Positions 38,350 to 49,997 of a stretch of 51,650 nucleotides of DNA are shown here, in pieces. Position 1 is the first letter of the stretch. The number at the start of each line of letters is the position of its first letter. Source of the DNA: Candidatus Aminicenantota bacterium (GTDB lineage Bacteria > Acidobacteriota > Aminicenantia > Aminicenantales > UBA4085); assembly GCA_017883285.1 (NCBI GenBank), contig JADGNV010000083.1, positions 1 through 51,650 of the forward strand, written 5' to 3'. The translations under genes and the position numbers were made by a program. The notes beneath the pieces are model-generated. The model ran no database searches. It had not been told where the DNA came from and worked only from the letters and a program-made list of their open reading frames with translations.

Positions 38350-39033
38350 CTACTTCAGGGCGGCGGCCCGGATTTCGATGTCCGCCTGCATCCGGAGATT
38401 CTTGATCCAAAGCGCGGCCTGGTTCTCGTTCTTGGTTGACTGGATCTGGGCCTCGAGGGCGTCCAGGACTTCGATCATCGGCGGCGGCGTGCGGCCGAGC
38501 TTCACCTGCGCCGGCACGTACGTCTCGGCGTAGTAGGCTTCGATCTCGCGGAGCGACACGCCCGCGCCGTGGATGAAGCGGTTGGCGACGATCGTTTCGC
38601 TCAGGATCGCCTCTTCGAGATATGGCCGAAGGTCTTCGGCCTCGAGCCCGAAGGCGTCGAGCCGGGCCTTCGCCTCGTCGCGACCGATCCGGGCCAGGAG
38701 CCGCCCGAGCTCGAGGGCGACCTTCGCCGGATCCACGGGGGACCTCTCCCGGGCGAGATCGATCACGACCTTCCGGTCGATCAGCCGCTCGAGGATGTAG
38801 CGCCGCTTCTCCTCCGGGGCGGCCGACGGTCCCGATTCGACGAGGCCGAACGCCTCGGCGATCCGGACGTCGGCCAGGGTCACCACCAGGCCGTTCACGA
38901 TGGCGGCGACACCGTCCACGACCTCGGTCCGCTGCTGCGCCCGGGCCGCCCCGGACGGCCAGAGTCCGGCCAGCGCCCCCAGGAGGAGGGCCGCGGCCGC
39001 GCCTTGGATTCGGTTTCGCATCTTAGAAGACAT
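38350..39033 (-). CDS. SurA N-terminal-like periplasmic chaperone without obvious PPIase domain
   Basis: Signal peptide; VDGVAAIVNGLVVTLADVRIAEAFGL..LERLIDRKVVIDLA. Confidence 0.72.
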   Translation of the reverse strand: MSSKMRNRIQGAAAALLLGALAGLWPSGAARAQQRTEVVDGVAAIVNGLVVTLADVRIAEAFGLVESGPSAAPEEKRRYILERLIDRKVVIDLARERSPVDPAKVALELGRLLARIGRDEAKARLDAFGLEAEDLRPYLEEAILSETIVANRFIHGAGVSLREIEAYYAETYVPAQVKLGRTPPPMIEVLDALEAQIQSTKNENQAALWIKNLRMQADIEIRAAALK

Positions 39034-41767
39034 TCCCGATCGTTAGGAAGATGATGGGCTGTTTCCGGCCCTCCGGCGGCCGGACGTTCCAACCAAAATC
39101 GATCCGGAGCGGCCCGAGGGGCGTCCGGTAGCGGATGCCCACGCCGAAGGCGTCCTCGAGCTGGGCGAGATCGAAATTCTTCCGGTTGGCGAAAATGTTC
39201 CCCTTGTCGTAGAACACCGCGCCCGACAGGGCGGGCGCCGAGGCGAACAGGGGGAAACGCAGCTCGAAATTGAAGAGCAGCATGGCCTTGCCGCCGACCG
39301 GCATCTCCGAAACCGGGTCCTTCGGCCCCAGCCGGTCGAACGGCTCGCCCCGGAACGAGTTGCTCCCGCCCCCGAAGAACCGCTCGTGGATGGGGATGAG
39401 ACCCATGGCCGCCCCGCCCCGCACCGTCAGGCTGAAGTTCAGGGGTAAGACCGGCATGAAGCGCTGGTACTTGAAAAAGAACTTCAGGAAGTCGGATTCG
39501 GCCTTGAACAGCGGATAGGCCCACTCGGCCACCGCGCTGAAAAACGTCCCGCTCTCGGGATTGAAGGAGTCGTCGCGCCGGTCCCGGATGAGACTTTCGG
39601 AGACCGACGTCACGGAGAACGGAAAGTGCTGCCGGTCCACCTCGTTCTCGGCCACGTCGAGGAAGTAGAGCGTCGTGCTCGTCCAGTGCAGGGTCGTGAG
39701 CGACACCCAGCCGCCGCCGAGGGCCTTGAGCCCGCTCAGGCTGACGCCCCGCTGGTCGAAGCCGTAGCTCACCAGCTCCTCGCGCTCAATCCAGGCGTTG
39801 ACCGTCGTCTGGAGGGGCAGGCCGAGGATATAGCGGTCTCCCCAGGAGGCGACGGCCCGCTTCTCCCGGAGGCTGAACTGGGAGACCAGGCTGAGCTGGG
39901 CCGCCCGGCCGAAGACGTTGCCCATGATGAACTCGGCCGTGGCGCGCGGCCCGATCGCATTGTCCCAGAGGGCGAAACTCTGCGGCTCGGTCTTGGTCTC
40001 GAGCCCCACCCCGGCGCCGACGTAGAACCGCTCGCCCTCGCGGACGTTGACGACCAGATTCTCGGACTCGGCCGTCACCGGGATCTCCTCGATCTTCACC
40101 TCGGAGAAGATCCCAAGCTTTTCGAGCCCGTGCTTCGACTCCAGGATGAGGTCGGACCGGGCCGAGTCCCCTTCCCGCAGCTTGAGCTCCCGGTCGATCG
40201 TACTCCGGGCGGTGGCCTTGGCGCCGGTGACGACGATCTTGGCGATCTTCACCCGCCGCCCTTCGGCGATCGCGAAATCGACGGCGAACAGGCGCTCGCC
40301 GGACGGTTCCACCGATACGGTCACGGTCGTCCCGCGGACTCCCTGGTTGAGATAGAACGCCTCCAGACGCTCGATGTCTTTCCGGAGGCTGGGCTGGTAA
40401 AACGGGCCTTCCGTCCGGCTCGCGATCTGGCCCCGGAGGGTCGCTTCGTCGAACAGCCCGGCCCCGCGGAGGGTCAGGCGGCTGATCGTCTGCTGCGGGC
40501 CCTCCTCCACGGTGAAAATCGCGGTCATGTCCGGCCCAATCCGCCGGAAGCTCAGTTCGACGCGCGTCTCGAGGAACCCCCACGCTTCGTAGACCCGGAC
40601 GATCTGGGCCGGCATCTCGAAGAGCTTGGCCCCGCCGAGGCCGCCGAAAAGCGTCGACGTCTGGCCGAATCCCAGTTCCCGCTTCAGCTCCTCGGCCGTG
40701 AAGTTCCGGAGGCCTTCGAAGACGGCGTTGTAGATCTTGTAGGCCTGGCCGCGGTTCACTTCGTGGACGATGCGGATCTCGTCCGCGGTCTTCTCGATCG
40801 AAGATGTGGCCGTGGCGAAAACGTAGCCCTGACCGCGCAGATACGCCAGGACGCGCGCCTCGGACTGGGCAAGGCCCCACTCCTCGTAGATGCGTTCCTC
40901 CCAGATCGGGCGGACGATGTCCTCCGGCACCTGGGCCCCCCGGATCGTGATCCGGATCCTCTCATGCGGGACGACGATGAGCGAGAGGGCGACCGCCGCG
41001 GCCGTGTCGTCGAACGCCTCCCGCTCCAGACCGATCTCGGCCCGCGGGTAGCCCCGGGCGCCGTAGAAATCTTTGATCCGCCCGATGTCCGCCTCGAGCT
41101 CGGCCGGGACGTACGGCCGGCCTACGCGGGTCACCAGCATCTTCCGGATGTCCGCGGCCCCGACCCCGGGATTGCCGGTGATCTCGAAGCTCGTCACGGC
41201 GTAGCGCCGGCCGGCCGCGACCTCGAAGGCCACGTCCATCAGGGGCTCGTCCGCGACGCGCACGGACCGGGGATCGACCGCGGCCTTGAAGTAGCCGTCC
41301 TTCTTCAGGGCGGCGGCAAGCTCCGCGGCCGCTCGCCGGACCTTCTCCGGCGTATAATCGCCGTCAGGGCGCAGGGCGTAGAGCTCGTCCTTGAGTTTGC
41401 CGGCCGAGATCCCCTTTTCGGTCAGGATCTTGATCTTCCGGACCCGGAGCTTGCGGGCCAGGAGAAACGTCAGCCGGACCTCGGTCTCTCCGTCCTTCAC
41501 GACCTGGATGTCGGAAAAGAGGCCGGTCTGGAACAGCCGTTTGAGGGCGGCGTCCGTCCGCTTGATCGAATAAGGCTCGCCCGGGGCGAGGGTGACGAGG
41601 TTTTGGAAGTCAGGCCCCGCGGGCCCCCCGTCCACCTTGATCACGATCGAGGTTACAATGGCGGGGGTAGCGTGCGCCTCCGCCGCGGCGGAGGCGCACG
41701 CTACCCCCACGCCCACCGCCAGCAGGGCGAGCAGGCCGGCCCTAAAAGCGCTTCCGGACTTTTGCAT
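39023..41767 (-). CDS. BamA/TamA-family outer membrane assembly protein (POTRA repeats plus Omp85 barrel)
   Basis: Repeated POTRA-like units; barrel motifs RGEPFDRLGPKDP, GIRYRTPLGPLRIDFGW, terminal FLTIGNVF. Confidence 0.92.
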   Translation of the reverse strand: MQKSGSAFRAGLLALLAVGVGVACASAAAEAHATPAIVTSIVIKVDGGPAGPDFQNLVTLAPGEPYSIKRTDAALKRLFQTGLFSDIQVVKDGETEVRLTFLLARKLRVRKIKILTEKGISAGKLKDELYALRPDGDYTPEKVRRAAAELAAALKKDGYFKAAVDPRSVRVADEPLMDVAFEVAAGRRYAVTSFEITGNPGVGAADIRKMLVTRVGRPYVPAELEADIGRIKDFYGARGYPRAEIGLEREAFDDTAAAVALSLIVVPHERIRITIRGAQVPEDIVRPIWEERIYEEWGLAQSEARVLAYLRGQGYVFATATSSIEKTADEIRIVHEVNRGQAYKIYNAVFEGLRNFTAEELKRELGFGQTSTLFGGLGGAKLFEMPAQIVRVYEAWGFLETRVELSFRRIGPDMTAIFTVEEGPQQTISRLTLRGAGLFDEATLRGQIASRTEGPFYQPSLRKDIERLEAFYLNQGVRGTTVTVSVEPSGERLFAVDFAIAEGRRVKIAKIVVTGAKATARSTIDRELKLREGDSARSDLILESKHGLEKLGIFSEVKIEEIPVTAESENLVVNVREGERFYVGAGVGLETKTEPQSFALWDNAIGPRATAEFIMGNVFGRAAQLSLVSQFSLREKRAVASWGDRYILGLPLQTTVNAWIEREELVSYGFDQRGVSLSGLKALGGGWVSLTTLHWTSTTLYFLDVAENEVDRQHFPFSVTSVSESLIRDRRDDSFNPESGTFFSAVAEWAYPLFKAESDFLKFFFKYQRFMPVLPLNFSLTVRGGAAMGLIPIHERFFGGGSNSFRGEPFDRLGPKDPVSEMPVGGKAMLLFNFELRFPLFASAPALSGAVFYDKGNIFANRKNFDLAQLEDAFGVGIRYRTPLGPLRIDFGWNVRPPEGRKQPIIFLTIGNVF
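41663..41708. repeat. 46-bp perfect palindrome in signal-peptide region of the tamA-like gene
   Basis: GGGGGTAGCGTGCGCCTCCGCCGCGGCGGAGGCGCACGCTACCCCC, self-complementary with no mismatch. Confidence 0.95.
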
Positions 41768-44700
41768 CGAAGCTGATCCGTCCCCGCTCATCGCGCATGC
41801 CGACGAGCGAGAACATGTCGCTGAATTCCCATTCCAACCGGACGATCTCCTCGCGCTGCGAGGTCAGGTTGGTCGAATAGAGGAGCATGATGTTGCGCGA
41901 GATCTTCTTGCCCACCGTCAGGCGGGCGGTCATTTCGGACGAAGCGCCGAGGACGAAGGGATCGATCCGGAACCGGTCGAGGCTGAACAGCTGCTCGGCG
42001 CGCTTCTTCGCGTCCTCGACGAGCTGGGCCGAGAGAAGCGAGCCGGCGCCGAGCTGGGAGCTGGTGTCGTAGGAGTACGTCCGCTTGAAGGACTCGCCGA
42101 GGGCCAGCAGGGCCAGGACGTCTTCGGGCGGAAGCGGGGGCGAGGAGGTGAATTCCGGCCGCAGCCGGTCCACCAGCCCGGTGAGCGAGAACGTGACGCG
42201 GTAGTCCTTGAGATAGGTCTCGCCCTGGAAATCGAGATACGGATCGATGAATGTCGGGTTGAAGAAGCTCAGCCGCGCCCGGAGGACGCGGAACTTGCGG
42301 TCCTGGAAGGTGACGTCGCCCCGGATCCCCTCGATGTCGCCGAGGAGGACCGGCGCGTTGATTCCGCCGGTGACGGTCAGGTCGAACCGGCCCCGGATCC
42401 GGCCCATGGAGTTCTCGATGACGGCGTTGTCGTCCGCCCGGACGCGGATGTCGAGCGTCAGGTCGTCGAAGATCCCCTTCCCCGTCTTCGGCGCGGCGGG
42501 CGGACCGGAGGAGAGGGAGAACTTGTCCGTGAGCTCGCGCTTCCAGGACAGCGTTTTCACCTGGATGTCGCCGGTGAGGGCGAACCGCGTCTCGTCCTTG
42601 AATAGCCGGAGCGTGCCGTCGACCAAGGCCCGCGTCCGCTCGATCAGAGCGAGGACCAAATTCCGGCCCTCAACCCGGACGTCGATGAGCTCGATCCCGC
42701 CCTTGCCGAACCGGATCTCGCCCGAGCCGGACACATCCCCGCCGCCGAGCTTGGCCTGGAGCGTCCGGATCATAGCCCTGCCGTTCTGAATGCGGACGAG
42801 GCCGCTGAAGTCGTTGAGCGAGTGGGCGAAACCGGGAATCGGAAAGAGGGGGCCCTTGAAGTCGATGACGCCGTTGATGTCGGATGCCGCGCTACCGCCC
42901 TTGATGTCGAGGAGAAAATTGAGCTCGCCCTGCACGCCCTTCCATGGAAGAAGGAGGTTGAAGTTGAGTACGCGGCCCTTAAGTCCGACTTGGAAAGAGC
43001 CGTCTGGCTGGGGATAAGCGAAGGTCGCCTGGAAATCGCCATGACCGGGAGCGAGCGCTCCCTGGATCTTGGCCTCGACCCGGTCGTTCCGGTAGACCAA
43101 CTCCACCGTCCCGTCGGCCGTCGCCTGCTCGAGCGTCGCGAATTTCAAATCGCGGGCCGCGAATGTCCCGGACAACGCGTCCGTGTCCAGGTTGCCTTTT
43201 CCTTTGAGCGTCAGGTTGATCCGTCCGGCGGCCGAGGGCACGAGCGCGGAGAGGTCGACATCCTGAGCCGTCAGATCGAGATCGAAATTCCGGCTCTTGA
43301 ACCCCAGCGACCCCGCGCCCCGGATCCGGCCGCCGTAGAATCCGGCCTGCAGGTCGGGAAAGGCCAGGGTGTTCGCGGCGTCCGACCAGGTCATCATCCC
43401 CCGGACATCGGTCAGGGGCTGGCCGGCCAGCTCGGCCCGGGCGCTCGTGAAGCTCCCCGCCACTTCGATCGCCTTTCCCCTCACGAAGACCGTGAAATCC
43501 CCGGCCGCCCGGCCCTTGAGCGGGACCCGCACGTTGAGGGGCGGCAAGACCCGCTCGAGGCTCGCCTCCTCGGCCTTGATCCGGACCTCGACCTCGTTCG
43601 GCCGGGCGGCGAGGCGGACGTCGCCCCGCATCTCGGGGTCTTGGACCTTAAAAATCCCGGTTACCTCGTTCCGGACGACCTCCCCCGTTCCACCGACCGA
43701 CGCGACGTCGAACCGGTCGAAGCCGCCGGGGGCGACGGTGAAATCGATCTTGATCTGGGGATGAGAGAAGTCTCCGAGGATCTTGACCTCAACCAATCCG
43801 CGGCCGCGGATCTCGGGAAACGTCAGCTTTTCCTTGAGGAGGAGGGAGGTGAACTCGCGCGCCTGCCGGACGTCGCTCACCTCGCCCCGGATGCCGACCT
43901 GCACCCTCCGGTTGATGTCGATCGCGGCCTCGGCCTCGATGACGCCGAACGTCGTTTCCAGCTTCTTCGAGGAGACCGTGACGTTCTCGAATCCGTCCCA
44001 GGTCACATCGACCGGACCCCGCCAGGAGTAGCGGTTTACCAGGGGCGGCGTGAGCTCGTCCCGAAACTCGGCATGGGCCCGGAGGTGCTTGTTCTCAACG
44101 GAGAATTCGCCCCAAGCCGGCGATCGGACGGGATAGGGGATGTTCAGGTAACGGAGGATGGGGTCCAGATGGACCCCGCGCACGACGCCCGCCACTTTGT
44201 CGCCGCCGAACGTGATTTCCACCGATTCGGTCGGCGCCGCTCCCCTGCCGAAGAGAAACTCGACCCGGCCGCCGCCCGCGCCGCCGGCCTCGACTTTCCC
44301 CTCGGTTCGGCCGAGGGGAATGGAATTCAGGACGATGTCGTCGCTCGCGAAATCGGCCCGGACGTCGACTCGGCCGGCATGCCACTGGACCCGGCCTTGA
44401 CCGACCGCTGTTCCGCCCCAGGCGAAGGGGATCCCAAGCAGCCCGGCCACGACCGCCGCCGGAGCGTGGAGCTGGGCCCGGATGTCGATCTCCGGATCGT
44501 CCGGGTTCTTAAGCAGGCCTTCGGCCTTGAGAATGATTCCCCGGCCGTCGACCTCGATCTTCCGAAAAGCGAGCTCGCGGCCCTTGCCTTCCAGGACGGC
44601 CCGGATCCGCCCCGTGAGCGGCGCCTTGAGCGAGGGCGGCTGGAAGGAGCTTTCGGCCGCGTCAAGGAGGAGATGGAACGCCGCCTTATCCTGACGGAAG

Positions 44701-45155
44701 GAGGCCATCACTTTCCGCGCCGAAAATGTGCCCGCCCGCCCCGTATAGAAGACTTCGCCCCCGCGCACGACGCCGCTCTCGATGGAGACCGGAAACGGCA
44801 GGCCGAACTTAAACGGGCCGCCGGCCGCGGGGGCCGCCGCATCCCGAAGCCGGACGACGGGATGGTCGATGACGACCCGGAAGGACTTCTCGCGGCGGAA
44901 CAGGGCCGCGAACGGGACCCGGATCTCCGCCCGGTCGGCCGCGAACGAGGGCGACGTCGACACCGATCGGATGTTCTCGAGGACGAGGGCCGGAGGAAAC
45001 GCGGAGAGCTTGAGCGTGCCGAAATAGAACGAGGATTCGATCGCCGACCGGATCCGGCCGAGGATGAAGCTTCGCAGCCCCAGGCCGGCGCCGGCGAGCA
45101 GGACCAAGAGGACCGCGGAGACGATGAGCGGGTGGCGCCGCCGGTTCCGTTTCAT
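41742..45155 (-). CDS. TamB-like translocation/assembly module protein
   Basis: 1137 aa, N-terminal anchor, AsmA-like repeats, C-terminal GLVDRLRPEFTSSPPLPPEDVLALLALGESFKR..LGAGSLLSAQLVEDAKKRAEQLFSLDRFRIDP. Confidence 0.92.
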   Translation of the reverse strand: MKRNRRRHPLIVSAVLLVLLAGAGLGLRSFILGRIRSAIESSFYFGTLKLSAFPPALVLENIRSVSTSPSFAADRAEIRVPFAALFRREKSFRVVIDHPVVRLRDAAAPAAGGPFKFGLPFPVSIESGVVRGGEVFYTGRAGTFSARKVMASFRQDKAAFHLLLDAAESSFQPPSLKAPLTGRIRAVLEGKGRELAFRKIEVDGRGIILKAEGLLKNPDDPEIDIRAQLHAPAAVVAGLLGIPFAWGGTAVGQGRVQWHAGRVDVRADFASDDIVLNSIPLGRTEGKVEAGGAGGGRVEFLFGRGAAPTESVEITFGGDKVAGVVRGVHLDPILRYLNIPYPVRSPAWGEFSVENKHLRAHAEFRDELTPPLVNRYSWRGPVDVTWDGFENVTVSSKKLETTFGVIEAEAAIDINRRVQVGIRGEVSDVRQAREFTSLLLKEKLTFPEIRGRGLVEVKILGDFSHPQIKIDFTVAPGGFDRFDVASVGGTGEVVRNEVTGIFKVQDPEMRGDVRLAARPNEVEVRIKAEEASLERVLPPLNVRVPLKGRAAGDFTVFVRGKAIEVAGSFTSARAELAGQPLTDVRGMMTWSDAANTLAFPDLQAGFYGGRIRGAGSLGFKSRNFDLDLTAQDVDLSALVPSAAGRINLTLKGKGNLDTDALSGTFAARDLKFATLEQATADGTVELVYRNDRVEAKIQGALAPGHGDFQATFAYPQPDGSFQVGLKGRVLNFNLLLPWKGVQGELNFLLDIKGGSAASDINGVIDFKGPLFPIPGFAHSLNDFSGLVRIQNGRAMIRTLQAKLGGGDVSGSGEIRFGKGGIELIDVRVEGRNLVLALIERTRALVDGTLRLFKDETRFALTGDIQVKTLSWKRELTDKFSLSSGPPAAPKTGKGIFDDLTLDIRVRADDNAVIENSMGRIRGRFDLTVTGGINAPVLLGDIEGIRGDVTFQDRKFRVLRARLSFFNPTFIDPYLDFQGETYLKDYRVTFSLTGLVDRLRPEFTSSPPLPPEDVLALLALGESFKRTYSYDTSSQLGAGSLLSAQLVEDAKKRAEQLFSLDRFRIDPFVLGASSEMTARLTVGKKISRNIMLLYSTNLTSQREEIVRLEWEFSDMFSLVGMRDERGRISFDAKVRKRF

Positions 45156-49968: not shown

Positions 49969-49997
49969 GCCGATTTTCCCCGGCGAGGAAAATCGGC
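49969..49997. repeat. Hairpin GCCGATTTTCC-CCGGCGA-GGAAAATCGGC
   Basis: 11-bp perfect stem, 7-nt loop. Confidence 0.8.

Follow-up and report, generated by a model that had tools for sequence, protein, structure and literature searches.

A perfect 46-bp palindrome in the signal-peptide region of a tamA-like gene, probably the footprint of a template-switch mutation

How did a gene for outer-membrane assembly in an uncultured Candidatus Aminicenantota bacterium (Acidobacteriota) come to contain a perfect palindrome of 46 bp? The palindrome lies at positions 41663-41708 of the window (the whole 51,650-nt stretch of DNA that was analysed), which is contig C227 of a draft genome of 227 contigs and 3.09 Mb with an estimated contamination of 6.2%. 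A check of the sequence confirmed that it is its own reverse complement over 46 of 46 bases, free of any spacer, with its centre between 41685 and 41686. An earlier sequence-only reading had picked out this feature and proposed for it an inserted repeat, a regulatory hairpin, a protein-binding site or an assembly artefact. That interpretation is partly supported by the present analysis; its list lacked the explanation that we favour, with a probability of about 0.62, namely that a replication error of the template-switch (quasipalindrome) type recently struck the part of tamA that encodes the signal peptide and left the palindrome as its footprint.

The assignment of the site to the signal peptide of a tamA-like gene was supported by the domain content of the locus. 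The gene (39023-41791, minus strand) encodes a product in which Pfam recognises an Omp85 barrel and four stretches of POTRA, and it is adjoined upstream by tamB (41742-45155, minus strand; Pfam TamB), so that the minus-strand order is tamB then tamA with tamB overlapping the tamA start. In four relatives (L040, L041, L042 and L050) an in-frame TGA separates the start of the longest reading frame from a conserved ATG, an interval that corresponds to 41767-41791 here. The true start of tamA is therefore probably the ATG at 41767, 24 nt downstream of 41791. Counted from this ATG, the palindrome occupies nucleotides 60-105 (codons 20-35), beginning 33 nt past the tamB stop, and its sense-strand peptide is GVACASAAAEAHATP. 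Its midpoint separates the first from the second position of a codon, which places third positions opposite third positions (phase 3). It had been remarked that both strands encode the same peptide; this is true, but it follows automatically from the perfect symmetry of the palindrome, which creates a mirror frame. The plus-strand reading frame that runs through the site (41592-42605, 337 aa) is antisense to tamA and tamB and has no Pfam match. It is an unsupported shadow frame of a GC-rich gene, and we do not consider it a gene.

Chance does not account for the palindrome. Within the window the runner-up among spacer-free perfect palindromes measures 16 bp, while the longest found elsewhere in the same genome is 22 bp (a sample of 651,587 bases, taken as stretches) and the longest in a second genome of the genus, G296, is 24 bp (384,923 bases). 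Using a random-codon model based on TamA/TamB codon usage and extrapolated from the decay across arms of 5 to 9 bp, palindromes with arms of at least 23 bp are expected ∼1.6e-6 times per 3.09-Mb genome and 2.7e-8 times per window, bearing out the earlier judgement that such a sequence was unlikely to be fortuitous. The window also contains a perfect 11-bp hairpin with a 7-nt loop at 49969-49997 (GCCGATTTTCC/GGAAAATCGGC). The other long inverted repeats examined in the genome sample lay where genes end or shortly beyond, or ahead of probable gene starts. On contig C12 of this genome (L070:2896-2943), a 21-bp perfect inverted repeat with a 6-nt loop (ATGACATTCAATAGTCCCGAG...), present in one copy in the genome, is situated just beyond the end of a minus-strand gene of 278 aa, and the intergenic sequence nearby resembles a widespread HPERSEES-type repeat.

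The named relatives available in the public collection include metagenome-assembled genomes of Acidobacteriota and Candidatus Aminicenantes, and the comparison within the genus involved one other genome, the congener G296, which is a different species. Among the genomes compared, the palindrome is present in the source genome only. The congener is the nearest genome (79% identity over tamA), and at shared residues the two species agree at only 63% of third positions, yet the 23 positions of the arms are free of mismatches; this suggests a palindrome that is either recent or actively maintained. The conserved VxVDG strand of TamA lies 100 nt past the end of the tamB stop here, 106 nt past it in the congener and 91-109 nt past it in the other measured family members; these orthologues of comparable length lack the palindrome. 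Because this distance is within the orthologue range, existing sequence was rewritten and nothing was inserted. Length is the decisive test: an inserted element of 46-48 bp would stand out, and none is seen.

Template switching at imperfect inverted repeats has been found to perfect them in E. coli reporters (PMC7202029), has been inferred in coding genes of yeast (PMC8604942), and has been proposed as a source of perfect RNA stems and hairpins (PMC8794818). The tamA sequence fits such a product in that the complementarity of its arms is beyond chance and its length is little changed. In the event that we propose, the nascent strand would for a short stretch have used as template either the opposite strand or the segment that it had itself just produced. 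The switch would probably have begun at CCGCGG, a short palindromic core, and ended at a G-run, turning the 5' arm into the reverse complement of its 3' counterpart. The congener retains a G-run and a CCGCGG core in corresponding or nearby places, and these could serve as switch points, although divergence is high; with a tamA only 79% identical in the nearest genome, neither the ancestor nor the points of switching can be reconstructed.

The suggested direction of copying comes from codons and residues. On the sense strand the 3' arm (CGGCGGAGGCGCACGCTACCCCC, 41663-41685, minus strand), probably the source, encodes AAAEAHATPAI where the congener has AAARADAGPAI, and the two proteins align here without a gap (AAEAHATP against AARADAGP). 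The two-residue gap of the protein alignment to G296 falls instead in the 5' arm (GGGGGTAGCGTGCGCCTCCGCCG, 41686-41708, minus strand), probably the derived copy. This arm carries TGC, the sole cysteine codon in TamA/TamB, and GTA, a rare valine codon (5 of 159 valine codons), whereas the codons of the 3' arm are more typical. Ungapped DNA identity did not clearly favour one arm over the other, and the assignment of copy and source is therefore suggestive only.

The reading frame is intact through the palindrome. The product of a template switch here would have been tolerated and close to neutral, with the frame kept and the length nearly kept, and the new residues, which are small and mostly Ala, Gly, Val and Ser, would suit a signal peptide and the spacer that follows it. 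A signal peptide rich in these residues can presumably bear the phase-3 constraint, which would explain why the palindrome survived. Arm length counts against a template switch, since 23 bp is rather long beside the 18 bp of the E. coli reporter (PMC7202029).

The alternative that survives best, though we consider it unlikely, is that a lineage-specific mRNA hairpin was selected at the tamB-tamA junction, where it would set the TamB:TamA ratio through a duplex that is cut by RNase III or that putatively blocks exonucleases or ribosomes. RNase III could plausibly cut a 23-bp duplex, and the palindrome is extremely stable as RNA (-51.4 kcal/mol, z -10.4), with the 201-nt junction folding 4.5 sd better than shuffled sequences. 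Moreover, a different perfect inverted repeat, GCGGGCGCGGG[AGCCGTCTTCCTC]CCCGCGCCCGC, is present in tamA of the congener (L036, sense ∼1576-1610 of the reversed locus). Its arms measure 11 bp and its loop 13 nt, and it lies almost as far from the tamB stop as the palindrome does here; the background of such repeats in that genome is 0.044 per kb. A second inverted repeat at the same place may leave room for selection on a hairpin, and to that extent speaks against template switching as the whole explanation. However, the congener repeat is unrelated in sequence, and the hairpin that it forms surpasses codon shuffles by only 1.7 sd; possibly the repeat marks a mutational hotspot, or arose by coincidence from the GC-rich codons of a signal peptide. 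Most other orthologues are without a hairpin, as their best local structures were ∼0-3.5 sd from codon shuffles at varying positions, with no conserved structure among them, and the palindrome itself lies inside the coding region, well beyond the start codon. The hairpin may still affect tamA mRNA or TamB:TamA levels, with its stability as the sole positive evidence. The regulatory hairpin suggested from the sequence is thus possible, with no conserved counterpart at this place in relatives outside the genus, while the suggested protein-binding site found no support. In a search of Rfam no family reached its gathering score; the sub-threshold chance matches were driven by hairpin shape, and a known RNA family was rejected. 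A combined scenario, in which a functional and recently evolved double-stranded RNA element (e.g. a site for RNase III or for blocking exonucleases) sets the TamB:TamA ratio and the genus repeatedly makes hairpins at this position by template switching, appears quite unlikely.

We also give little credence to a coding palindrome that is kept perfect by repeated conversion between its arms, as has been proposed for hairworm mitochondria (PMC6649704). Perfect arms inside a coding region would be expected from such a process, but the palindrome is absent from the congener, and no second perfect coding palindrome of this size was found in 651 kb of the genome, so that the multiplicity seen in nematomorphs has no parallel here. 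The arms also meet in the strictest coding phase, third positions against third positions, which restricts residues most and is depleted among the long coding repeats of hairworms (PMC6649704).

The draft state of the genome, with its many contigs and estimated contamination, raises the question of an assembly or consensus artefact in the form of a fold-back chimera. A fold-back would return along the same flank, but here the palindrome is bounded by tamB/tamA on the left and by mature TamA on the right. Synteny, reading frame and signal-peptide length run normally through it, in the same order as in relatives. Since both flanks and the frame follow the normal tamB-tamA arrangement, a fold-back does not fit, and the artefact that had been feared is improbable from the topology, with a small risk remaining.

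Searches for further copies of the sequence were uniformly discouraging for a repeat family. Within one mismatch, the 18-bp core of the arm matched only the two arms of this site in the genome, and at two to three mismatches it gave three one-sided matches, fewer than the reversed control. No exact copy of the 38-bp core was present in 84,980 species genomes (one each, the window's own record possibly excluded), the 22-bp arm was absent from viral contigs, and phage and plasmid matches were at chance level. Allowing up to two mismatches in 396 genomes of the phylum, we obtained scattered matches, at most a few per genome and with no multi-copy family, and the reversed control matched about as readily. 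Insertion of a REP, RPE or MITE-like mobile palindrome that was then domesticated within the signal peptide, an idea that the resemblance of a perfect in-frame coding palindrome to the Rickettsia palindromic element invites, is rejected as highly improbable, because it fails both on copy number and on the absence of added length relative to orthologues; the REP/RPE-like insertion put forward in the sequence-only reading is contradicted on the same grounds, and the genome search for the arm that it recommended revealed no second copy.

In summary, the palindrome is real, and probably an incidental mutational footprint. It offers a clean natural case of a long perfect hairpin in a bacterial gene that is free of any mobile element and was probably produced by one mutational step in a region that tolerates change. 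It also illustrates that an in-frame palindrome does not by itself constitute evidence of an inserted repeat, and that the length of orthologues is what separates rewriting from insertion.

Set beside known systems, the tamA palindrome shares GC-richness and the capacity to form a hairpin with REP/BIME palindromes, but it is neither repeated nor intergenic. With Rickettsia palindromic elements it shares an in-frame position in a protein-coding gene, but it exists as a single copy and adds no length relative to orthologues. The coding palindromes of Nematomorpha mitochondria (PMC6649704) are likewise perfect inverted repeats in an open and apparently translated gene, with both arms coding; those palindromes are many, in conserved protein and in phases 1 and 2, whereas the present one is single, bacterial, in a poorly conserved signal peptide and in phase 3. 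The closest likeness is to the quasipalindrome template-switch mutations described at the E. coli thyA hotspot, in lacZ reporters and in coding genes of yeast, where local self-templated copying perfects the arms and where coding sequence can also be struck, altering several adjacent residues at once. The tamA case differs in having arms longer (23 bp) than those of the 18-bp E. coli reporter and in being seen as the end product alone, with no ancestor beside it; it works like a quasipalindrome template-switch product and most likely is one.
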